Shown one piece after another: positions 3,708-35,013 of a stretch of 36,236 nucleotides of DNA. This DNA comes from a virus. The notes beneath the pieces were generated by a model, which was not told the DNA's origin, made no database searches, and was given only the letters and a program-made list of their open reading frames with translations. Within the stretch, counting starts at the first letter, position 1. Each line of letters opens with the position of its first letter. Position numbers and translations under genes: made by a program. The stretch covers positions 1-36,236 of IMG/VR virus record IMGVR_UViG_3300027721_000003. The stretch is one strand, 5' to 3'.

Positions 3708-4231
3708 GGGCTAAAGCATGTAAAGGATGCGGCAACAAGTTCGTACCAGAGCGCCCATTGCAATCCGCCTGTGGTATCGAGTGTGCTTACAAAGTCGGGA
3801 AGGCGAACGGCACGAAAAAACGGGCGGCACAGTACCGGGCTGACAAGAAACGGATTAAAAGCCGTGCGGACTGGATGAAGGAAGCGCAACAGAGCTTCAA
3901 TAGGTGGGTAAGGCTGCGCGATGAAGGGCAGCCATGTATCAGTTGTGGCACACAGACCGGCAAGCGAAACGCGGGGCACTATCGCAGCGTGGGGGCATGT
4001 CCTGAACTGAGATTTGAGCCAAAAAATTGTCATGTTCAATGTGAACGCTGTAACTCATGGCTATCTGGTAATGCGATTGAGTACCGTATCAACCTGATAA
4101 AAAAGATCGGTCTGCCAATGGTGGAGTGGCTGGAATCAAGCCACGCAGCGAAGAAGTACACGATAGAGCAGCTTGAAAATATCAAGGCCGAATATGCCCG
4201 ACTAGCGAGGGAGATAGAACAAAAATGCTAA
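3704..4231 (+). CDS. ninG: NinG (Rap) recombination endonuclease
   Basis: 175 aa with an N-terminal zinc finger (CKGCGNKFVP... SACGIECAYK) and the NinG core CISCGTQTGKRNAGHYRSVG, then NCHVQCERCNSWLSGN, giving paired Cys ligands and the H-Y-R-S box. Lambda NinG/Rap cuts recombination intermediates such as D-loops and Holliday junctions. The ATG overlaps the ninB stop by 4 bases. The length is slightly below lambda NinG. Confidence 0.9.
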   Translation: MRAKACKGCGNKFVPERPLQSACGIECAYKVGKANGTKKRAAQYRADKKRIKSRADWMKEAQQSFNRWVRLRDEGQPCISCGTQTGKRNAGHYRSVGACPELRFEPKNCHVQCERCNSWLSGNAIEYRINLIKKIGLPMVEWLESSHAAKKYTIEQLENIKAEYARLAREIEQKC

Positions 4232-4371
4232 AACGCTTGCGTATCTGGTGGCTGAAATTCTGCTTATGGCTGAACGCCATAGAAATTGAGTCCGGACAAG
4301 ACCTACTTGCCTACGACAAGAAAAAGAAAGCGAAACTTGAGGCGCGGTTGAAAGCGGCACGGCATGGCTAA
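4225..4371 (+). CDS. Small basic protein (48 aa)
   Basis: MLKRLRIWWLKFCLWLNAIE followed by a Lys-rich helix (DKKKKAKLEARLKAARHG). It has an amphipathic/hydrophobic start and basic end, so it may associate with membrane or nucleic acid. It overlaps ninG by 7 bases and the next gene by 8. No family recognised. Confidence 0.6.
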   Translation: MLKRLRIWWLKFCLWLNAIEIESGQDLLAYDKKKKAKLEARLKAARHG

Positions 4372-4591
4372 ATTAATCAAAGCATGGATTGTTGGAGACA
4401 AGGTGGCGACTGTTTTTTCCGGCAATGAAACGCGTCACACAATTACCGCCACGATACGCGGGACAAGTGAGAGCGGTTTGCTTGTGCGGGTAGAGCCCCG
4501 CGTGCCTAAAACAAGCAATGGGAAATGGACGTGGCTAGAGGCTAATTGGTTTTATTCGCCTAGTCGTGAAAGTGACAAAAATCATGGCTAA
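4364..4591 (+). CDS. Hypothetical 75-aa protein
   Basis: A beta-rich protein (GDKVATVFSGNETRHTITATIRGT... LLVRVEP) resembling small beta-barrel folds, but no family can be named. It overlaps the genes on both sides. Confidence 0.6.
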   Translation: MAKLIKAWIVGDKVATVFSGNETRHTITATIRGTSESGLLVRVEPRVPKTSNGKWTWLEANWFYSPSRESDKNHG

Positions 4592-4805
4592 ACAAAACCT
4601 AAACGTGAACGGTGACACATTGCCAGATTTGGGATGCCATGAATGCGCCCATAGCCAAGCCGGATCAATGATCATAACAGGCGGATTTATCCTGGTGTGC
4701 TCGATTACTGAACGGCCAGCATTGGAGCGGTGCTATAAGTGGGAGTATGAGCAGATTAAGGCTAACGTAGAGTTAAGGGGCGACGCTTCGCGGCGTCCCT
4801 CTTGA
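4584..4805 (+). CDS. Small Cys-rich (probably Zn-binding) protein whose C-terminus is rewritten by a cassette insertion
   Basis: 73 aa with CHEC at residues 18-21 and two further Cys (LVCSITE, ERCYKWE), a pattern of small phage zinc proteins that usually end soon after the RCxxWE motif. The last residues, VELRGDASRRPS, are encoded by the attC-type site at 4760-4820. If cassette cluster 1 is removed the frame reads AAG GCT AAC GTG TAT TAG, ending ...IKANVY. So the insertion replaced the natural two-residue end with a 12-residue tail. Confidence 0.7.
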   Translation: MAKQNLNVNGDTLPDLGCHECAHSQAGSMIITGGFILVCSITERPALERCYKWEYEQIKANVELRGDASRRPS

Positions 4806-4820
4806 ACGGCGGGTTATGCC
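4760..4820 (-). repeat. attC-type recombination site A
   Basis: Read on the minus strand: R'' GCATAAC, L'' CGTTCAAG, a near-palindromic core with GACGCC / GCGTC arms, L' CTTAACTC, R' GTTAGCC. This is close to the aadA-class attC consensus. The unpaired C inside L'' (GTT-C-AAG against CTT-AAC) is the base that gives the extrahelical G on the recombinogenic bottom strand, and it fixes the orientation as minus. It overlaps the end of the gene at 4584-4805. Confidence 0.85.
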
Positions 4821-4846
4821 GGTTTTAATAACGAACGGAGATAAAA

Positions 4847-5116
4847 ATGGGAACATTGACGCACAAAGGTTATGGGCGCATCTATTGCGAAAATGCAGAT
4901 GACATTGAAAAGGTGGATGCCGTTATCAAAGAACTGGATGAGTTTGAGCATCGCTACCTGCCGGTGAAAATGATTACGACTTTCGATCAATACCCGGAGG
5001 TTGTCTACACAGGAAAATTCAGCGACATGGACATGAGCAAATTGACTGCCGAATGCTGGAAACGAGGAGTAAAAATTTGGGTGCATGACTCTGTCCATAA
5101 TGAATACGGGGCATAA
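4847..5116 (+). CDS. Cassette gene 1: hypothetical 89-aa protein
   Basis: Starts MGTLTHKGYGRIYCENADDIEK; acidic, alpha/beta, no recognised family. The ribosome site CGGAGAT lies 4-5 nt before the ATG, which is 34 bp from the GTT of the cassette end. Its TAA (5114-5116) is formed inside the GCATAAC core of the next site. The gene is on +, opposite to attC A and B. Confidence 0.72.
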   Translation: MGTLTHKGYGRIYCENADDIEKVDAVIKELDEFEHRYLPVKMITTFDQYPEVVYTGKFSDMDMSKLTAECWKRGVKIWVHDSVHNEYGA

Positions 5117-5170
5117 CGATTCAAATTAACCCGCGCCGAAGGCGTCGGCGTTGAATGCCGTGTTAGGCAC
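5110..5170 (-). repeat. attC-type recombination site B
   Basis: On the minus strand: R'' GCCTAAC (perfect RYYYAAC), L'' CATTCAACG, core arms CCGACGCC / GGCGCGGG around a short loop, L' GTTAAT, R' GTTATGC. The unpaired C in L'' (ATT-C-AAC) is again present. The R' bases match the far end of cassette 1, and the R'' bases match the start of cassette 2. Confidence 0.87.
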
Positions 5171-5192
5171 GGCGCAAACATAGGAACGAAAC

Positions 5193-5393
5193 ATGGCACT
5201 AGAAAAACACCACGCCGAAATGATGGCGTTGCTACTGGAAGAAGCTTCGCAGAACTTGGCTGCAATGATGTTCACGCCAGAGGCAGAAAAGCTACAAGTG
5301 CGCCACTTTTTGCCGGATGAGTTGGACGGCTGCGCGATCATGCTTAGAGAGGCATACGAAATTGATGTGCCTAACGATGGAGTTCAGGGGTGA
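5193..5393 (+). CDS. Cassette gene 2: hypothetical 66-aa protein
   Basis: Starts MALEKHHAEMMALLLEEASQ; helical and acidic, no family recognised. The ribosome site AGGAACG is at correct spacing, and the ATG lies 31 bp after GTTAGGC. The last residues (NDGVQG) and the TGA lie inside attC site C, so its C-terminus is partly encoded by the recombination site. Confidence 0.68.
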   Translation: MALEKHHAEMMALLLEEASQNLAAMMFTPEAEKLQVRHFLPDELDGCAIMLREAYEIDVPNDGVQG

Positions 5394-5426
5394 GCGAAGC
5401 GATCCCCTGCAATGAGGGGTTCGACC
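5367..5426 (-). repeat. attC-type recombination site C
   Basis: On the minus strand: R'' GTCGAAC, L'' CATTGCAGGGG, a core with a GAAGC/GCTTC-type turn, L' CCCCTGAAC, R' GTTAGGC (perfect). L'' has one extra base relative to L' (TT-G-CAGGGG against CCCCTG-AA), matching the canonical extrahelical position. R'' deviates from consensus, but its exact complement is at 5419-5426 / 5806-5813 as a cassette requires. Confidence 0.8.
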
Positions 5427-5444
5427 ACACAGGAGGCTACGAAG

Positions 5445-5822
5445 ATGAATGCAACGATAGTCGCGGCGACACTGGCAGGGCGCTGCGCAAATGGTTATGA
5501 GAGAGGCGCTGGGCGCGTGGTTCATGCGATTAAGTGCGATGAGAACGACCTCTGTTTCGGCGCTAGTGCATACCGTGCCATTTGCGGAAAGGCGCATGGC
5601 CCAAGAAGCGCCGGGTGGAGCGTTAGAACTGACCTCGAAATAACATGCCAAAAGTGCCTAAAGAAGATACCTACTCACTGGATGGATGACTCTGGCAATG
5701 TTGTAACCACTGAGTTTTTGAACGGGCCGAAGGGGTCAAGCGATTGGCGCACTGCTTACCACATACCTTGCCGCGAAGTGCGCGGGAAAATCACAATGCT
5801 TGTGGGGTCGAACGTGTATTAG
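5445..5822 (+). CDS. Cassette gene 3: small zinc-ribbon-like protein (125 aa)
   Basis: Starts MNATIVAATLAGRCANGYER; contains CDENDLC and AICGKAHG, then the common phage zinc-ribbon ending ITCQKCLKKI. It has the strong ribosome site AGGAGG, and the ATG lies 26 bp after the cassette end. The final codons AAC GTG TAT TAG straddle the right junction of the cluster, so the stop codon comes from the phage DNA outside the cassette. Function unknown; probable Zn-binding. Confidence 0.75.
   Translation: MNATIVAATLAGRCANGYERGAGRVVHAIKCDENDLCFGASAYRAICGKAHGPRSAGWSVRTDLEITCQKCLKKIPTHWMDDSGNVVTTEFLNGPKGSSDWRTAYHIPCREVRGKITMLVGSNVY
5806..5814 (-). other. Right junction of cassette cluster 1
   Basis: GGTCGAAC (5806-5813) is complementary to GTTCGACC at 5419-5426. 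No second hairpin half follows, so this is where the first cassette joined phage DNA. Confidence 0.72.
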
Positions 5823-5926
5823 GCGACCTATTGGACTTGAGTTTTACACCAAAATAACCCGCCAACCTTAATGAACATTAGTAACTTTTTTAACGCAGTC
5901 AAGTTTTACGACAAGGGGAAAATAAT

Positions 5927-6088
5927 ATGCTAAAACGCAATGGAGACAACAAGCCCTGCCCAGAGTGCAGAAAAGACTGCCGCCCGTGGGAGTTGGCAAA
6001 GGAAGAAAGCGGACACAGGCATATTTGCGACGAGTGCCGGGCGAAGGCGGGTGACGTGCCGGTGTTAGTGCAGAAGCAGGCTAGTTAA
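5927..6088 (+). CDS. Small double-CxxC protein (53 aa)
   Basis: MLKRNGDNKPCPECRKDC and later HICDECRAKAG: two CxxC knuckles that should bind one zinc. The ribosome site AAGGGG precedes the ATG. Between 5823 and 5926 I see only a loose direct repeat of a TTTTAC-containing segment and no promoter I would trust. Confidence 0.65.
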   Translation: MLKRNGDNKPCPECRKDCRPWELAKEESGHRHICDECRAKAGDVPVLVQKQAS

Positions 6089-6102
6089 GCAAGAGGTGGC
6101 AA

Positions 6103-6264
6103 ATGAAGCTCTGGATAATGCGGAAAATTTGGAAATTGAAAATGAAATACGCCTATCGCTGGATACATCAAATGGGGCTACAGGTTGTCCAAATTGAGCA
6201 TCTAGGCGGGACTAATTACATCGTTACCAAGAACGGCCAATACTTGAAAATCAGCAAGAAATGA
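6103..6264 (+). CDS. Small basic hypothetical protein (53 aa)
   Basis: MKLWIMRKIWKLKMKYAYRW at the start, very basic and aromatic, then a beta hairpin-like end (GGTNYIVTKNGQYLKISKK). The ribosome site is GAGGTGG. The stop overlaps the next ATG. No family recognised. Confidence 0.58.
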   Translation: MKLWIMRKIWKLKMKYAYRWIHQMGLQVVQIEHLGGTNYIVTKNGQYLKISKK

Positions 6265-6443
6265 CCTACAAATGCCCACTCGGAAAGCACCAGCAAACGC
6301 CGATGGACGTTGACGCTATCAAGGCAGAGGGGTGGCGCAACGATGGGATATTGGTGGTCAATGTGGATAGCCTGAAACTCAACTGGATTGAGCGTCAATT
6401 TATCCAGAATATTGGTGACAAGCTGTACGGGAAGCGGAAATGA
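6261..6443 (+). CDS. Small hypothetical protein (60 aa)
   Basis: Starts MTYKCPLGKHQQTPMDVDAI. It sits in a run of ATGA-coupled genes (overlaps of 4 bases on both sides). No family recognised. Confidence 0.6.
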   Translation: MTYKCPLGKHQQTPMDVDAIKAEGWRNDGILVVNVDSLKLNWIERQFIQNIGDKLYGKRK

Positions 6444-6661
6444 TAACCCAACAAGAATGTGCAGACGCATGGCGGCGGCGGTGGGCTGATCCGGTTATCG
6501 AGCGCCCGAGCTGTTACAACCGGCTGGAATTTGATTGGAGTGGGCGAAACGGGTGCTCTGCCTGGTTCCCTGGTGGAAACGCTCACGTAACCGCAAGGAT
6601 GATCGACAAGGGCGGCAAGGTGTTTGAGTGGTATCGGTGCAATGGGTGCGAAAGGCGATGA
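6440..6661 (+). CDS. Small hypothetical protein with C-terminal CxxC (73 aa)
   Basis: MITQQECADAWRRRWADPVI, a basic Trp-rich start, then ending VFEWYRCNGCERR. ATGA coupling on both sides. Possible zinc or nucleic-acid binding; no family named. Confidence 0.6.
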   Translation: MITQQECADAWRRRWADPVIERPSCYNRLEFDWSGRNGCSAWFPGGNAHVTARMIDKGGKVFEWYRCNGCERR

Positions 6662-6837
6662 TGAGCGAAGAAACATTTTACTGCTATTGCTGCAAACAGC
6701 GCAGGCCGTTGGTTACACGATTAAAAGTTTACAATAAACGCGGCGAGTTTGTGCGGTTCAGATGCTTGATTTGCAAACAACGATCAGACCAACAGGAAAA
6801 ACTCAATAAGGGGATAGTATGCCAGATCAACGGGTAG
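6658..6837 (+). CDS. Small zinc-binding-like protein (59 aa)
   Basis: FYCYCCKQRRPLV and FRCLICKQRS give two CxxC pairs, a one-zinc ribbon. The ATG at 6658 overlaps the previous stop; an ATG at 6661 is equally possible. The end overlaps the next gene by 19 bases. Confidence 0.62.
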   Translation: MMSEETFYCYCCKQRRPLVTRLKVYNKRGEFVRFRCLICKQRSDQQEKLNKGIVCQING

Positions 6838-7154
6838 TAAGCTTTTTACTTGATTGGGCTGAATGGATGGGTGGTTATAATCCGGCCATAGGATTTAACA
6901 AACGAGTTCCGTTGATAGCCACGGGCGGCGGCTCCCCGACATTTGAAGAGCTTTTAAGCCATGTAGACGGTCATATAATGAAAACCATAGATGCAAGTGT
7001 AAGCAGCCTAGAGCCGTTGCCAAGAGCGGCCATATATCGCCATTATGATGTATGTGCCGTTTGGCGTTTTCCACGGAACAATTTTCAGGAGGTGCTAGAG
7101 GATGCGCACCAACAGATTGAAATAATTCTTAGAAGAAAGTCGGTATTGACATAA
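6819..7154 (+). CDS. Q-like late antitermination protein (probable)
   Basis: 111 aa. Residues about 65-105 (LPRAAIYRHYDVCAVWRFPRNNFQEVLEDAHQQIEI) resemble the helical core of phage antitermination Q families, which typically have an IYxRY ... WRFPR pattern. It is the last gene of the early block, directly before a consensus promoter and strong terminators at 7146-7350, exactly where a Q protein would act. The promoter's -35 box lies over its last codons. The assignment rests mainly on motif and position. Confidence 0.6.
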   Translation: MPDQRVVSFLLDWAEWMGGYNPAIGFNKRVPLIATGGGSPTFEELLSHVDGHIMKTIDASVSSLEPLPRAAIYRHYDVCAVWRFPRNNFQEVLEDAHQQIEIILRRKSVLT

Positions 7155-28467: not shown

Positions 28468-29472
28468 ATGCCCCAACTCTCCCAACTGATGCAGCTATTC
28501 CGCAACGAGAAAGCCAAGTGGGGGAACTCGCCTAAATTGGCTGATTTGCTGATGCGTGATAGCTCCACGAAGGGTATTCGTGACTATGCAGGCAACGTGC
28601 AACAGCGTGGAGCTACGTTGGCGGGGTTACTCCAAGGCCGGGAGCCTACGGACGCACAGAAGGCGCTGTTTAACATTGCTAATCCGGGTACGACTGAGGG
28701 AGCAATGGAGCTTGCTACCGGATTTATGCCGATGGGCGTAGCCGCTACCGCATGGCACGGATCGCCTCACCTGTTCGACAAGTTCGACCTAGCCAAGATT
28801 GGAACGGGCGAAGGGGCGCAGGCTTATGGGCATGGGGCTTATTTGGCCGAATCTCCAACTGTTGCTCAAAATTATAGAACTAATATTTCTGATGCTAAAG
28901 GATTAAGAAATGGAGAAACATTGATTGATGGGGTTAAGCCGAGGAATAGTTTTGAAAATACTATAGCCACAATGTTAGTTAGCCATAATAACGATACTGG
29001 TAGAGTAAAAAAACTAATTTCAGGAATGGAAGATAAAGACTATGCAAATAAACTTCTTTCTTCATTAGACGAATATTCGAGTAAAAATATCACTTATCAG
29101 CCGCCAGGGTTTACCTACAAAACCGACATCCCCGACACTCACATAGCCAAGATGCTGGATTGGGATAAGCCGCTGAGTGAGCAGAGCCAGCATGTGCAAG
29201 GCGCACTGCAAACATGGGAACAGGCCAACAACGGTGGTAAACAGCTACGCCAATCAATGAGCGGTGATGAGCTGTTGAGGTATTTGGGCAAGAATGGTCA
29301 AGGCGAACAAGCACTAAATCAACTCGGCATACCCGGCATAAAATACCTGGATGGCAGCTCACGCGCTGGCGGTGAAGGAACCCGTAATTTTGTCATGTTC
29401 AACCCTGACGATATTCGGATACTTGAGCGCAACGGGCAGCCTACCGGGCAAGTGCCGTGGAACAGCAGGTAG
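28468..29472 (+). CDS. ADP-ribosyltransferase-like virion protein (334 aa)
   Basis: Residues 96-128 (WHGSPHLFDKFDLAKIG ... AYGHGAYLAE) form the first half of an ART fold as found in phage polyvalent proteins. The second half is at about 285-325 (IPGIKYLDGSSR ... NFVMFNPDDIRIL). The first 90 residues resemble the start of ejection proteins, suggesting delivery with the DNA. Between the halves, residues 131-211 (28858-29100) are markedly A+T-rich compared with the flanks, as if inserted. The target of ADP-ribosylation is unknown; catalytic activity is not proven. Confidence 0.72.
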   Translation: MPQLSQLMQLFRNEKAKWGNSPKLADLLMRDSSTKGIRDYAGNVQQRGATLAGLLQGREPTDAQKALFNIANPGTTEGAMELATGFMPMGVAATAWHGSPHLFDKFDLAKIGTGEGAQAYGHGAYLAESPTVAQNYRTNISDAKGLRNGETLIDGVKPRNSFENTIATMLVSHNNDTGRVKKLISGMEDKDYANKLLSSLDEYSSKNITYQPPGFTYKTDIPDTHIAKMLDWDKPLSEQSQHVQGALQTWEQANNGGKQLRQSMSGDELLRYLGKNGQGEQALNQLGIPGIKYLDGSSRAGGEGTRNFVMFNPDDIRILERNGQPTGQVPWNSR

Positions 29473-30276: not shown

Positions 30277-30380
30277 GATTACTCCGAGGTGTATTTGTCG
30301 ATCCAGTTTCAAAAGTACCCAGCATCCATTAAGGTTAGCGGGTTATTTAGGTGTAATTGCCGGTATTTTTAGGGTGTCCA

Positions 30381-30563
30381 TTACTCGTTGTGCGTCAGGT
30401 ATTCATCAATTGCATCACGCAGCATTTCAAGCAACTCTTTATCGGCTTCGAACCCCGTCCACTGAAACCCGTTGCGCATTACAGAGACTTCAACGCAATC
30501 AACGCCGTATCGACCATCCGTAATTCTCACGCCTTTATCACCATTTTTTCTGCCTATTTTCAT
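30381..30563 (-). CDS. Cassette gene 4: hypothetical 60-aa protein
   Basis: Starts MKIGRKNGDKGVRITDGRYG; alpha/beta. Ribosome site ACGGAGATAAAC before the ATG, nearly identical to that of cassette gene 1 at 4847. The GAG TAA end lies just outside the cassette junction at 30387, so the stop comes from phage DNA. Transcribed opposite to its attC (site E, + orientation). Confidence 0.7.
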   Translation of the reverse strand: MKIGRKNGDKGVRITDGRYGVDCVEVSVMRNGFQWTGFEADKELLEMLRDAIDEYLTHNE

Positions 30564-30878
30564 GTTTATCTCCGTAGTTAAAATGCCGCACAACCCTACG
30601 CTCAAGCGGGACTGCGCAAAAGCGCGCAGCCCCTTAGCTACACGTTAGGGGCTTCTTTCGCCGCAACCACATACGCCCGAATAATTGCGTCAAGCTCGTC
30701 ACGCTGCGTTCTCGTCAGTCCTCCGACGTAGGAAAGTCCGCCCGCCTGCACAAAGACGGTTTTGCCATCACGGTCGCGGTAATACTCTCCGCGCTTGATG
30801 CCGAAATAATGCCCACGGACAGCCCCCAACCCGGCACTCAACGCGGACGCTGCGCTTTCAGGCTTCGTTTTGCATTCG
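30387..30878 (+). mobile_element. Cassette cluster 2: two integron-type gene cassettes in the leftward operon
   Basis: Left junction GTTGTGCG (30387-30394) complements CGCACAAC (30587-30594); GTTAGGGGC (30644-30652) complements GCCCCCAAC (30822-30830) with one mismatch. The left end is a simple junction and the right end is site F. The attC sites read +, genes read -. Same design as cluster 1, mirrored with the operon. Confidence 0.7.
30588..30652 (+). repeat. attC-type recombination site E
   Basis: R'' GCACAAC, L'' CGCTCAAGC, core arms CTGCGC / GCGCGCAG around AAAA, then CCCCTTAGC as L', R' GTTAGGG. L''/L' pairing leaves one unpaired C (GCT-C-AAG against CTT-AGC), the canonical position, fixing a + orientation. 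Confidence 0.82.
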
Positions 30879-30898
30879 TTCTCAACATCTGGTCCCAT
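30638..30898 (-). CDS. Cassette gene 5: hypothetical protein with attC-encoded N-terminus (86 aa)
   Basis: The ATG at 30898 has GGAG upstream and lies outside the cassette in phage DNA. The first 30 residues (MGPDVENECKTKPESAASAL...) are encoded by phage DNA and site F. The cassette's own part is GHYFGIKRGEYYRDRDGKTV ... LDAIIRAYVVAAKE, a beta hairpin plus helix. It ends AAC GTG TAG within site E. No family recognised. Confidence 0.6.
   Translation of the reverse strand: MGPDVENECKTKPESAASALSAGLGAVRGHYFGIKRGEYYRDRDGKTVFVQAGGLSYVGGLTRTQRDELDAIIRAYVVAAKEAPNV
30822..30885 (+). repeat. attC-like site F (degenerate)
   Basis: R'' CCCCAAC and L'' CACTCAACG fit the consensus, but the right half pairs poorly and R' would be GTTCTCA (30878-30884). 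It is translated as the N-terminus of cassette gene 5, which may explain the drift. Confidence 0.45.
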
Positions 30899-30986: not shown

Positions 30987-31184
30987 TCATCCCCATTTCA
31001 TGTTTAAAATTGAGTTTAGTCTAGCCACGTCAGGCCCACGCTCTCGGCTTCGGCGTAACAACGCACCACACGACCTTGAGCATGTCCTGCCGTGGTATGC
31101 AGGCCATGACTCTGTACGCTGTTTTTGCTTCACCCCGCCACAATGCTGGCAGGGTGTTTGCTCGTAGCGTTTCACGTTTGGCAT
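30987..31184 (-). CDS. Small zinc-finger-like protein (65 aa)
   Basis: MPNVKRYEQTPCQHCGGVKQ and CSRSCGALLRR: a CxxC...CxxxC finger with basic flanks. The start overlaps the Gp157 stop (TAATG). Confidence 0.66.
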   Translation of the reverse strand: MPNVKRYEQTPCQHCGGVKQKQRTESWPAYHGRTCSRSCGALLRRSRERGPDVARLNSILNMKWG

Positions 31185-31681
31185 TACTTCACCTCAAGCC
31201 GGTTGCGCTTTTCGATCACGGCACCAGGTACTTCAATGCCGGCCTTCAACGCCTTTTTAATGGCGGCCTTATCGGGCGCGGTTGTCGTCACCACATTGAT
31301 AAATTCAGGCGGCAACAATAAATCATCGTTGATAACTACGACCTCATCCCGATCAATCAGCAGCTTGGCGCAAAATGATCCGTCATTGGCTTTGATCTCT
31401 GTAATCCCCGTCATTTCCATAGAGGATTTAAGATACTCTCTGAATTTCTCTGCGCGGTTTTCAATCGCCTTTCGACGCTCTGCCATTTTCTTCTCAGCGG
31501 CCTTTATCATTTCCGCCTCAGCGGATAGGTTCAGCATGTAAGCAGTGACATTCTGGGCTTTAGTAACAACTTCCATGCTCATGCCTTCTATTGTGTCGGC
31601 TATGCAGTCCTCTGGTAGATCAGAGTCCATGATCTTATCGAGTGCCGTGGCGAACTCAAGGGATAGGGTGTACAGGCTCAT
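31184..31681 (-). CDS. Gp157 family protein
   Basis: 165 aa matching the siphovirus Gp157 family: an acidic start (LSLEFATALDKIMDSDLPED), coiled coil (EAEMIKAAEKKMAERRKAIENRAEKFREYL) and C-terminal domain ending INVVTTTAPDKAAIKKALKAG. Common beside ERF/RecT genes; reported to be linked to phage resistance in Streptococcus, but the molecular role is unclear. ATGA overlap with the ERF gene. Confidence 0.88.
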   Translation of the reverse strand: MSLYTLSLEFATALDKIMDSDLPEDCIADTIEGMSMEVVTKAQNVTAYMLNLSAEAEMIKAAEKKMAERRKAIENRAEKFREYLKSSMEMTGITEIKANDGSFCAKLLIDRDEVVVINDDLLLPPEFINVVTTTAPDKAAIKKALKAGIEVPGAVIEKRNRLEVK

Positions 31682-32256
31682 AGCGCACCTTCAATCTTCT
31701 GGTGTTGGCTCATCATCACTTTCTTGAGTCGTTCAGCGGATGACCTGTCCCCAAGTTCCTTACACTGCGAAAGGCATTTATCCCACTCTGTTTTCAGCGT
31801 GTCAACGTCAGTACATTCCATGAATTTCAATTGCCAGTCAGCGTATTCTGACTCGTCAAGGGTTTGCTTTTTTGGCTCATCTTTGACTGTGCCGGCGTCT
31901 AATGCGTCATGCTCTACAATTTCCATTGCCGTAACCCAAAGATAACGGCGCTGGTAAGTCTCTACGGCTCCAACATTTTGCACCTCATGGCATCCCTTGA
32001 GGTTTGCGCTACCCATTGGGCTTGTGAAGGCAATAGAACCGTCTCCGTCAGTCTCGTATATCGTCAGCGTGGCAATATCAGCACTAAACGACACAACGCC
32101 ACACAAGCCGATTTCTGCGAAGATTGTCTGTACAGTCGGCAAAAAGTCGCCAAGCTCAAAATACAGATACCCCGCGAATTTGTTGTGACCTGACTTCGAC
32201 AACCTAGTGCTTTGAAGTTTCAGTCTGGCATCCATTAGTTTTTTGTAGATGTTCAT
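31678..32256 (-). CDS. erf: ERF-family single-strand annealing protein
   Basis: 192 aa with the ERF core: KFAGYLYFELGDFLPTVQTI, FTSPMGSANLKGCHEVQNVG, AVETYQRRYLWVTAMEIVEHD. Its C-terminal 60 residues are helical. P22 Erf forms rings and anneals ssDNA for genome circularisation and recombination; here it likely partners with NinB and NinG. Confidence 0.9.
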   Translation of the reverse strand: MNIYKKLMDARLKLQSTRLSKSGHNKFAGYLYFELGDFLPTVQTIFAEIGLCGVVSFSADIATLTIYETDGDGSIAFTSPMGSANLKGCHEVQNVGAVETYQRRYLWVTAMEIVEHDALDAGTVKDEPKKQTLDESEYADWQLKFMECTDVDTLKTEWDKCLSQCKELGDRSSAERLKKVMMSQHQKIEGAL

Positions 32257-33990: not shown

Positions 33991-34170
33991 ATGGAAAACA
34001 TAAACAGCAAAATAATTGACGCGCTAGGTGGCACTAAGAAAGTATCAGAGCTAATCGGGGTAACGCCTTCAGCCGTTTCGATCTGGCGGAAAAAAGGTAT
34101 TCCACGCGATACGCTGCGATACTTAAAATTAAAGAAGCCAAAAGTGTTCAAAGATTTGATCTCGGTGTAG
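33991..34170 (+). CDS. Cro-like helix-turn-helix regulator (59 aa)
   Basis: IIDALGGTKKVSELIGVTPS then AVSIWRKKGIPRDTLRYLKL: a five-helix Cro/YdaS-type fold with the recognition helix around TPSAVSIWRKKG. It sits at the divergent control region, so it likely represses the early promoters. No CI-type partner was found on either strand. Confidence 0.78.
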   Translation: MENINSKIIDALGGTKKVSELIGVTPSAVSIWRKKGIPRDTLRYLKLKKPKVFKDLISV

Positions 34171-34220
34171 CCACTCAAGCGCCAATCGTTTTAAGCGTCG
34201 ATTGGTGGCTGTGTGGTTTT

Positions 34221-34240
34221 CCCGCAGACGCGGGGTTTTT
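34221..34240 (+). terminator. Intrinsic terminator after the Cro-like gene
   Basis: CCCGC-AGAC-GCGGG followed by GTTTTT. It separates the regulator from the ParB-like operon; read-through or a downstream start would be needed. Confidence 0.7.
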
Positions 34241-34251
34241 ATTCGGTTTAA

Positions 34252-34305
34252 CGCTGGCACTGAGGCATCAGGATTGTGTATTTCCGCCACACAATCGCGC
34301 CAGCG
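34252..34305 (+). promoter_or_regulatory. Two-tier hairpin in the leader of the ParB-like gene
   Basis: Outer arms CGCTGGC (34252) / GCCAGCG (34299) and inner arms ATTGTGT (34273) / ACACAAT (34289) nest perfectly. It ends 30 nt before the ATG at 34336. A further GCCAATCG/CGATTGG pair lies at 34181-34205. Possible attenuator or protein-binding leader. Confidence 0.45.
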
Positions 34306-34335
34306 TCCTATTCTTGGCGGAATGAAAGGCGCGAA

Positions 34336-35013
34336 ATGGACTTGCTTGGAAGTAATCTTTCCGGTGAATTTGACGTTATTCTGAGTCAAATTAATTCAAT
34401 GGAATTAGACGAAAAAGTATCTGCAATAAATGAACTTCGTCGCCAGTTGCATGAAATATCCCCATTCAAAAACGAACCTGTTGATCTTGTTCAGTGGATA
34501 AAATCATCTGTTGTTACGGCTAACGATTACAACCCTAACAGCGTTGCGCCTCCTGAGATGAAACTGCTAGAGCATTCAATTGAAGCCGATGGATACACTC
34601 AACCAATCGTGTCATGGTTACGGGATAGCGCATTTGAAGTTATTGATGGATTTCACCGACATCGGGTAGGCAAAGAATCTGAGAGCATTAAAGCGCGTGT
34701 ACATGGCTATTTGCCTGTTGTATCTATCAACGCATCCAGGGATGACAAAAGCGACCGCATGGCCTCTACAATTCGGCACAATAGGGCGCGTGGTGAGCAC
34801 AGAGTAGATTCTATGGCGGATATAGTCGTTGATCTAAAGCGCCGGTTTTGGTCTGATGAAAAGATCGCCAAAGAACTTGGCATGGATTCTGACGAGGTAT
34901 TGCGACTACAGCAAGTTACAGGGCTTGCCGGGTTATTTGTAGATCATGAATTTTCTGAGGCATGGGAGGCAACAACAATTGCTGAAATTGAGGGAGAGAA
35001 TATCCTCGAATGA
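34336..35013 (+). CDS. ibrB: ParB/Srx-like protein of the IbrB type
   Basis: 225 aa. The ParB-like core has DGYTQPIV (85-92) and EVIDGFHRHRVG (101-112); then IRHNRARGEHRVDSM and a helix-turn-helix segment (162-198, IAKELGMDSDEVLRLQQVTG). This order matches IbrB, encoded beside IbrA in E. coli, where the pair affects Ig-binding gene expression. ParB/sulfiredoxin-fold proteins are often found next to PAPS-reductase-like enzymes in phages. The ATG at 34336 with GAAAGG is chosen over an upstream GTG at 34276. Confidence 0.85.
   Translation: MDLLGSNLSGEFDVILSQINSMELDEKVSAINELRRQLHEISPFKNEPVDLVQWIKSSVVTANDYNPNSVAPPEMKLLEHSIEADGYTQPIVSWLRDSAFEVIDGFHRHRVGKESESIKARVHGYLPVVSINASRDDKSDRMASTIRHNRARGEHRVDSMADIVVDLKRRFWSDEKIAKELGMDSDEVLRLQQVTGLAGLFVDHEFSEAWEATTIAEIEGENILE

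Follow-up and report, generated by a model that had tools for sequence, protein, structure and literature searches.

The window analysed here is a 36,236-nucleotide phage contig (IMG/VR record IMGVR_UViG_3300027721_000003; linear, possibly a fragment), and it carries integron-type gene cassettes at two places. Array 1 (4760-5813) comprises three cassettes whose ends match, together with their three attC sites. Array 2 (30388-30650), on the other arm, has one attC and one cassette; the initial annotation missed it, and it was exposed by a self-comparison of the array 1 region as a 74% copy of site A (Table 1). For array 1, that annotation had claimed three attC-type sites at 4760-5813, complementary cassette ends of 8, 9 and 8 bp that are unique to each cassette, and an extra base in every L''. 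All of this stands. The three sites are seen in the sequence, by our scanner and by a covariance model, and re-reading the boundaries returned the same lengths (GTTATGCC/GGCATAAC, GTTAGGCAC/GTGCCTAAC and GTTCGACC/GGTCGAAC), the TTRRRY at each cassette start pairing with its own R'' (over 8 bp in cassette 4 as well). The extra base is a bulge at L'' position 4 in all four sites.

Table 1. Features of the two cassette arrays and their flanks. Scanner values are for the called strand and then the other strand; CM, covariance model.
Feature	Position	Strand	Sequence or length	Scores and remarks
Gene o4587	4587..4805	+		3' end is the array 1 insertion point; crossover between 4765 and 4766
attC A	4760..4819	-	GCATAAC-CCGCC-GTTCAAG...CTTAAC-TCTAC-GTTAGCC	scanner 17.0 (minus), 13.4 (plus); CM 44.8 bits, E 1.9e-7
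Cassette 1	4766..5116	canonical strand -	351 bp; TTATGCCCCG...attC A...G	
ORF C1	4847..5116	+	89 aa	RBS GGAG; stop TAA within crossover box GCATAAC
attC B	5111..5168	-	GCCTAAC-ACGGC-ATTCAAC...GTTAAT-TTGAATC-GTTATGC	scanner 15.75, 13.35; CM 39.1 bits
Cassette 2	5117..5374	canonical strand -	258 bp	attC B and ORF 5193-5393 (+)
ORF C2	5193..5393	+	66 aa	final codons inside attC C of the next cassette
attC C	5369..5425	-	GTCGAAC-CCCTC-ATTGCAG...CTGAAC-TCCATC-GTTAGGC	scanner 15.45, 12.25; CM 25.2 bits, E 0.0026
Cassette 3	5375..5812	canonical strand -	438 bp	attC C and ORF 5445-5822 (+)
ORF C3	5445..5822	+	125 aa	last codons (..NVY*) supplied by the platform
attI-like platform 1	5813..5882	-	reverse complement: CATTAAGGTTGGCGGGTTATTTTGGTGTAAAACTCAAGTCCAATAGGTCGCCTAATACAC^GTT	conserved core about 5854-5873
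attI-like platform 2	30317..30387	+	CATTAAGGTTAGCGGGTTATTTAGGTGTAATTGCCGGTATTTTTAGGGTGTCCATTACTC^GTT	
ORF D1	30381..30563	-	60 aa	
Cassette 4	30388..30644	canonical strand +, gene on -	257 bp; ends GTTGTGCG/CGCACAAC, 8 bp	
attC D	30588..30650	+	GCACAAC-CCTAC-GCTCAAG...CTTAGC-TACAC-GTTAGGG	scanner 16.5, 12.7; CM 38.3 bits
Phage gene	30638..30898	-		3' end is the array 2 insertion point; crossover 30644/30645

The scanner describes an attC as R''-L''-loop-L'-R' with a single bulge fixed at L'' position 4; a cruder scan without the fixed bulge gave chance matches in coding DNA and was replaced. It recovered the expected attC in R751, R388 and R46 and in phages TJE1 and Va p16. The four best matches in the window are A, D, B and C (17.0, 16.5, about 15.8 and about 15.4), where order-2 Markov copies of the window yield 0.27 matches per 36 kb at 15.4 and 0.05 at 16.5. 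We also trained a covariance model on 23 bacterial attC. All four sites score high with it, from 25.2 to 44.8 bits, against 11.9 for the next match in the window; as these training sites were chosen by the scanner, the model is independent of the window and not of the scanner's concept of an attC. Qi et al. 2023 (PMC9892861) apply a cut-off of 20 bits with their own model. Two attC outside the training set are nearly identical to site D: a chromosomal one from the integron of a Gallionellaceae MAG (L169; 98.3% identity, 59 nt) and one from a phage array (L340; 98.3%, 58 nt). On the scanner counts against Markov copies, the covariance scores and the likeness of D to bacterial attC, the sites exceed chance.

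Folding, a check proposed with the initial annotation, divided the sites. As single-stranded DNA, A and D favour the bottom strand (-15.3 vs -9.5 and -16.1 vs -14.0 kcal/mol), but the two strands of B are about equal, and C, whose covariance score is also low (25.2 bits), folds no better than shuffles on either strand. Since an ORF follows directly after each hairpin, one might take the hairpins for 5' UTR structures, regulators or terminators that resemble attC by chance, and Rfam returned no match to them, so that nothing known is excluded. That reading is nevertheless largely refuted, and we give it hardly any weight, in view of cassette-specific complementary ends four times over, the covariance scores, the near identity to bacterial attC and the cassette-exact polymorphism in related phages described below.

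On the top strand of a canonical attC, it is the 5' arm that carries the extra base. By this mark all four attC of the window point against their ORFs, with scanner margins of 2.4-3.8 units and the covariance model on the same strand; the usual direction, with the ORF along the attC, which is a strong bacterial tendency and not a strict definition, is found in none of the four cassettes. Because the attC are opposite to the ORFs, three sites fit exactly three cassettes, and array 1 closes at the platform at 5813 and not at a fourth attC. A fourth, long attC after cassette 3 was considered and ruled out, as the inverted reading needs no such site to close and the platform occupies that stretch. 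When the flanks of array 1 are fused without the cassettes, the o4587 ORF, which at present runs into attC A and stops at 4805, ends in ..YEQIKANVY*; the same operation on array 2 gives an ORF ending in ..KEAPNE*, and both of these are plausible gene ends. Displaced from the flanking genes, they at present terminate the ORFs in cassettes 3 and 4.

The cassette ORFs are small and mostly lack recognisable relatives. C1 has no Pfam match, a PHROG match at 0.061 only and no match in phage records, C2 has no family match in Pfam or PHROG, and D1 has no Pfam match; the direction of these three ORFs is based on RBS and frame only. The N-terminal half of C3 resembles proteins of Stenotrophomonas phage S1 and of a Xanthomonas IncP plasmid, annotated as CDS on the matching strand, and its C-terminal residues 76-119 resemble cassette-borne sequences that adjoin attC in two phage arrays (L323 and L357). 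A search of genome contigs gave no match to C3.

At the 3' end of the cassette genes, the two arrays border on similar sequences. Aligned in crossover register, platforms 1 and 2 are identical at 43 of 70 positions, where the next best GTT in the window reaches 30 of 70, and at 19 of 20 positions in the core from -60 to -41. In a comparison with Gallionellaceae attI, platform 1 ranks first among 1261 GTT positions for L169 (CAAATAGGATGCCTACTTCAC, 16/21) and for L159 (14/21), and platform 2 first among 1262 for the Gallionella attI of L167 (TTAGGGTGTCTACTTTAC, 13/18). As the platforms are the best matches in the window to Gallionellaceae attI, we call them attI-like; each array abuts such a platform, the likeness being moderate (13/18 to 16/21). 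An exact 22-mer of the platform core had no match in IMG/VR.

If a host IntI had inserted the cassettes at secondary, attG-like phage sites, no dedicated platform would be needed. IntI can use non-classical attG sites (Loot et al. 2024, as cited in PMC12901181), and both insertion points lie a few codons ahead of a stop codon. Yet the insertion points have the 70-nt region in common, in crossover register and with its 19/20 core, the platforms beat every other GTT of the window in their match to bacterial attI, and in a group of related phages (the L080 group) the filled alleles share extra platform sequence that is missing from the empty ones. We therefore consider attG-like insertion quite improbable.

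The initial annotation had described a CALIN-like cluster, without integron integrase, in a lytic-looking phage. The integrase is indeed missing from the contig: in these 36 kb, possibly a fragment, there is no match to the integron integrase profile TIGR02249, to Phage_integrase (PF00589) or to any other tyrosine recombinase domain. A CALIN comprises at least two neighbouring attC without intI; array 1 has three attC and array 2 has one. The description as CALIN-like is apt in so far as there is an attC array with no integrase in the contig, but each array abuts an attI-like platform, and because of that adjoining platform the set is more than a CALIN. We do not retain "lytic-looking", as 33991-35013 encodes a ParB-like protein and a P22-Cro-like/YdaS-like regulator (the latter below Pfam's cut-off) and the record is linear and possibly a fragment.

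Recombination genes precede both arrays. NinB/NinG-like genes lie directly upstream of array 1, and Sipho_Gp157/Mu Gam-like end-protection and Erf-like annealing genes (31184-32256, minus strand) directly upstream of array 2. Elsewhere, 28468-29472 encodes a product with a weak match, short of Pfam's cut-off (E 1e-4), to ART-PolyVal, an ADP-ribosyltransferase domain of polyvalent phage proteins; a C-terminal stretch of the product matches a PHROG named endolysin.

To set the inverted cassettes in context, we called ORF direction relative to attC automatically, array by array, in bacterial, published phage and IMG/VR loci. Bacterial arrays ran in the same direction in 19 cases, in the opposite one in 2 and were mixed in 1 (38 cassettes vs 6), and published phage arrays were 4 to 0. 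Among the IMG/VR loci, where about 27% of cassettes are ambiguous in direction and host DNA may be present among the contigs (L174 had that appearance), 48 of 59 arrays were opposite and 11 the same. Split by search, same and opposite numbered 6 and 15 for integrase-bearing contigs, 5 and 27 for the attC-pattern search, which is blind to ORF direction and favours one L-box type, and 0 and 6 for the terminase family. The excess over bacteria is marked (Fisher p = 7e-9 for arrays, 1.4e-13 for cassettes), and RBS-bearing ORFs were opposite in 78 cases and the same in 9. Of 77 inverted ORFs, 34 have their stop codon within the YTAAC box. We do not use this count as evidence, because frame alone would place it there in about a third of cases and the feature can also occur in bacterial cassettes. 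Inversion of the ORFs relative to attC recurs as a class among the IMG/VR contigs and is not a single case.

Could the inversion be an artefact, the attC strand having been misassigned or the true ORFs being antisense? Cassettes 1 and 2 do contain antisense ORFs, of 94 and 71 aa, and the orientation margins in the window amount to merely 2.4-3.8 units. However, the identical procedure gives the expected direction in bacteria (19 vs 2) and in published phage (4 vs 0), the covariance model selects the same strand, C3 has annotated homologues on the + strand, and the ORFs with methylase, Mom and Dam domains in phage cassettes are real genes that lie in the inverted direction. Moreover, the inverted reading is the only one under which the platform forms the exact end of sites and cassettes. 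An artefact is, in our judgement, very improbable.

Some phages with inverted arrays encode an integrase of their own. In IMGVR_UViG_3300045918_000492 (L242), the cassettes, IntI, terminase and portal are all on one strand and the array's attC all on the other. Its IntI scores 407 bits against TIGR02249, whose cut-off is 265; the terminase and portal match PHROGs with E 1e-136 and 9e-114, and an anti-repressor-type early gene lies on the same strand. From 3710 to 6927 this contig has a tandem pair of related cassettes for DNA methylases (53% identity), then IntI, terminase and portal. Three further contigs, L233, L237 and L238, combine TIGR02249 integrases above cut-off with inverted arrays, and together with L242 these are the phage-encoded members of what we propose as a phage-type unidirectional integron. 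Upstream of intI, L233 and L237 have an attI core in common, TCGTTGAATTNAA^GTT, which is a candidate phage attI consensus. In Virus Rctr41k (KX853513; L092), the gene at 4680-5678, annotated as 'integrase-like protein', is an IntI homologue with 45% identity to IntI1, followed by attC-like sites that are weak by the scanner and absent by the covariance model. The window has the features of the proposed type, namely attC opposite the ORFs, ORFs along the phage genes and a platform at the 3' end.

We assigned Pfam families to the proteins of inverted cassettes (n = 78, four of them from the window). The set holds 6 N6_N4 methylases, 3 Dam, 1 C5 methylase, 1 Mom, 3 PAPS reductases, 1 QueC and 1 dGTP diphosphohydrolase domain, counted by family, so that families may overlap. 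As DNA methyltransferases and further genes for DNA modification abound in this pool, the benefit of the cassettes is likely the rapid exchange of counter-restriction and accessory genes. A counter-restriction role for methylases in phage cassettes is also proposed by Qi et al. 2023 (PMC9892861).

In a terminase search, several relatives carried attC arrays upstream of the terminase, and a second such search gave relatives with 0 to 3 cassettes at one locus. Empty alleles are those of L075, L259, L263, L266 and L303 (..CAACTGAGGCGC.C ATGGC.TACG, with small differences). The filled ones have one cassette each in L264 and L073, different from each other, two in L081 and three in L080. Filled alleles have extra flanks in common, ..CAACTGAGGTT on the left and GTGAAATAGGCCGCAC..CCAACAACCACAC on the right; the platform sequence of this group is present in every filled allele and missing from the empty ones, and a 16-mer of it matched 16 contigs. 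The covariance model had no match on four of the empty alleles (L075, L259, L266 and L303). At a second array site of the same group, L260 (7091) and L273 (9916) were considered as empty alleles and rejected, as they have an internal deletion, which removes most of a 240-aa cassette gene, and not a clean excision.

L080 and L081, a near-identical pair, differ by a single cassette. Their flanks agree at 100% over 812 bp to one side of it and at 99.6% over 6186 bp to the other; L080 (3439-3965) has, relative to L081 (3319-3327), one extra inverted cassette of 534 bp with an HNH-like gene, inserted at GCCTAA^C. Judged by its sequence, this difference is the product expected of integrase-mediated cassette gain or loss, and it is natural evidence for cassette movement within phage lineages. 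The comparison with empty sites called for in the initial annotation thus succeeded in a related phage group but not at the window's own locus. IMG/VR holds no relatives of o4587 or of the gene at 30638-30898 that flanks array 2, so empty alleles of the window's own loci are not demonstrable; close relatives of its early region were not found either, and no cassette movement was seen in the window phage, close relatives of its loci being absent from our searches.

Integrons are bacterial gene-capture devices with one usual polarity. Class 1 integrons (R751, R388 and R46) share with the window the attC architecture, the G^TT crossover and the cassette ends, but they have intI1, a Pc promoter, ORFs in attC orientation and resistance cargo. 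The sedentary chromosomal integrons of Gallionellaceae (L158, L159, L167 and L169) resemble it in attC D (98% over 59 nt) and in attI sequences similar to the platform cores, but their intI lies beside attI and their cassettes are mostly along attC. In the 'reverse' integrons of Spirochaetes, attC and ORF are co-oriented. It is intI that is reversed there (PMC9668308), and phage arrays likewise have intI and cassette ORFs in one direction; in phages, however, the cassette ORF is the inverted part.

That phages carry attC arrays is already known. Qi et al. 2023 (PMC9892861) report attC arrays and complete integrons in phages TJE1, PH101 and P12002L, Shewanella phage M16-3 and Vibrio phage p16, with 5 of 6 tested phage attC active with IntI1. 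Like the window, these have attC arrays with small ORFs in phage genomes, theirs also with DNA methyltransferases; unlike the inverted window, the scorable ones (TJE1, M16-3 and Va p16) have ORFs along attC, in 14 cassettes vs 1. The material of that study was NCBI complete phage genomes, and the sections of it consulted describe no inverted class and report neither an integrase-less attI-like platform nor cassette-level alleles in natural phages. Our search of the PMC literature (no preprints, few subscription journals) likewise found no inverted phage cassette class, no integrase-less phage platforms and no cassette-exact alleles in phage populations. Within that literature, the inverted class is apparently unpublished.

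As the source of phage CALINs, Qi et al. 2023 (PMC9892861) suggest illegitimate uptake. Applied to the window, this would make the arrays an ordinary CALIN, a piece of a host's chromosomal cassettes taken up by illegitimate recombination and inert in the phage. The contig has no integrase, attC D is almost identical to a bacterial chromosomal attC, and CALINs in virulent phages are published (same study). Such uptake does not readily explain arrays whose two ends coincide exactly with crossovers, in two different places of the genome and with a matching platform at the same distance in both, nor ORFs inverted unlike those of host arrays, nor single cassettes precisely gained or lost in related phages. 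A captured CALIN is thus, we think, unlikely.

Collectively, we think it probable that the window phage carries two integrase-less, unidirectional phage-type integron arrays that are filled in trans. The model builds on the sites, the cassettes, their inversion, the similarity of the platforms, cassette gain and loss in relatives and IntI in other members, all of which are read from the sequences.

The array of a normal integron extends outward from intI, and Pc reads its genes in that outward direction. In the phage-type integron, the geometry of integrase, attI and attC would be normal and transcription would run one way, toward intI, which would leave the cassette genes inverted relative to attC. 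With phage genes and intI transcribed in one direction, upstream phage promoters would express the array only if its cassettes are inverted. Along the coding strand, the predicted order is a phage gene, the oldest to the newest cassette, the attI-like platform, intI if present, and further phage genes, each cassette reading attC, RBS, ORF and crossover box. IntI would act on the folded bottom strand of attC (the coding strand of the phage) and recombine it with the platform, so that circular cassettes are inserted at G^TT and excised at pairs of attC. The window would retain this inverted geometry without an integrase. We infer that the reaction proceeds in trans, with integrase from the chromosomal integron of a Gallionellaceae-like host or from a co-resident phage, that the cassettes are expressed from the phage operon promoter and not from Pc, and that their benefit is the gene exchange proposed above.

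Beyond this phage, and with somewhat less assurance, we favour a model in which phages own an integron class: a one-way operon of inverted cassettes that ends in attI, sometimes with intI, its intI-less platforms being filled in trans from a shared, largely phage-specific pool, rich in DNA modification, that is exchanged among phages with hosts such as Gallionellaceae. If this is true, a widespread inverted, unidirectional phage integron would show how phages have fitted the system to their own transcription, and it would provide a natural route for the rapid exchange of counter-defence genes among phages.
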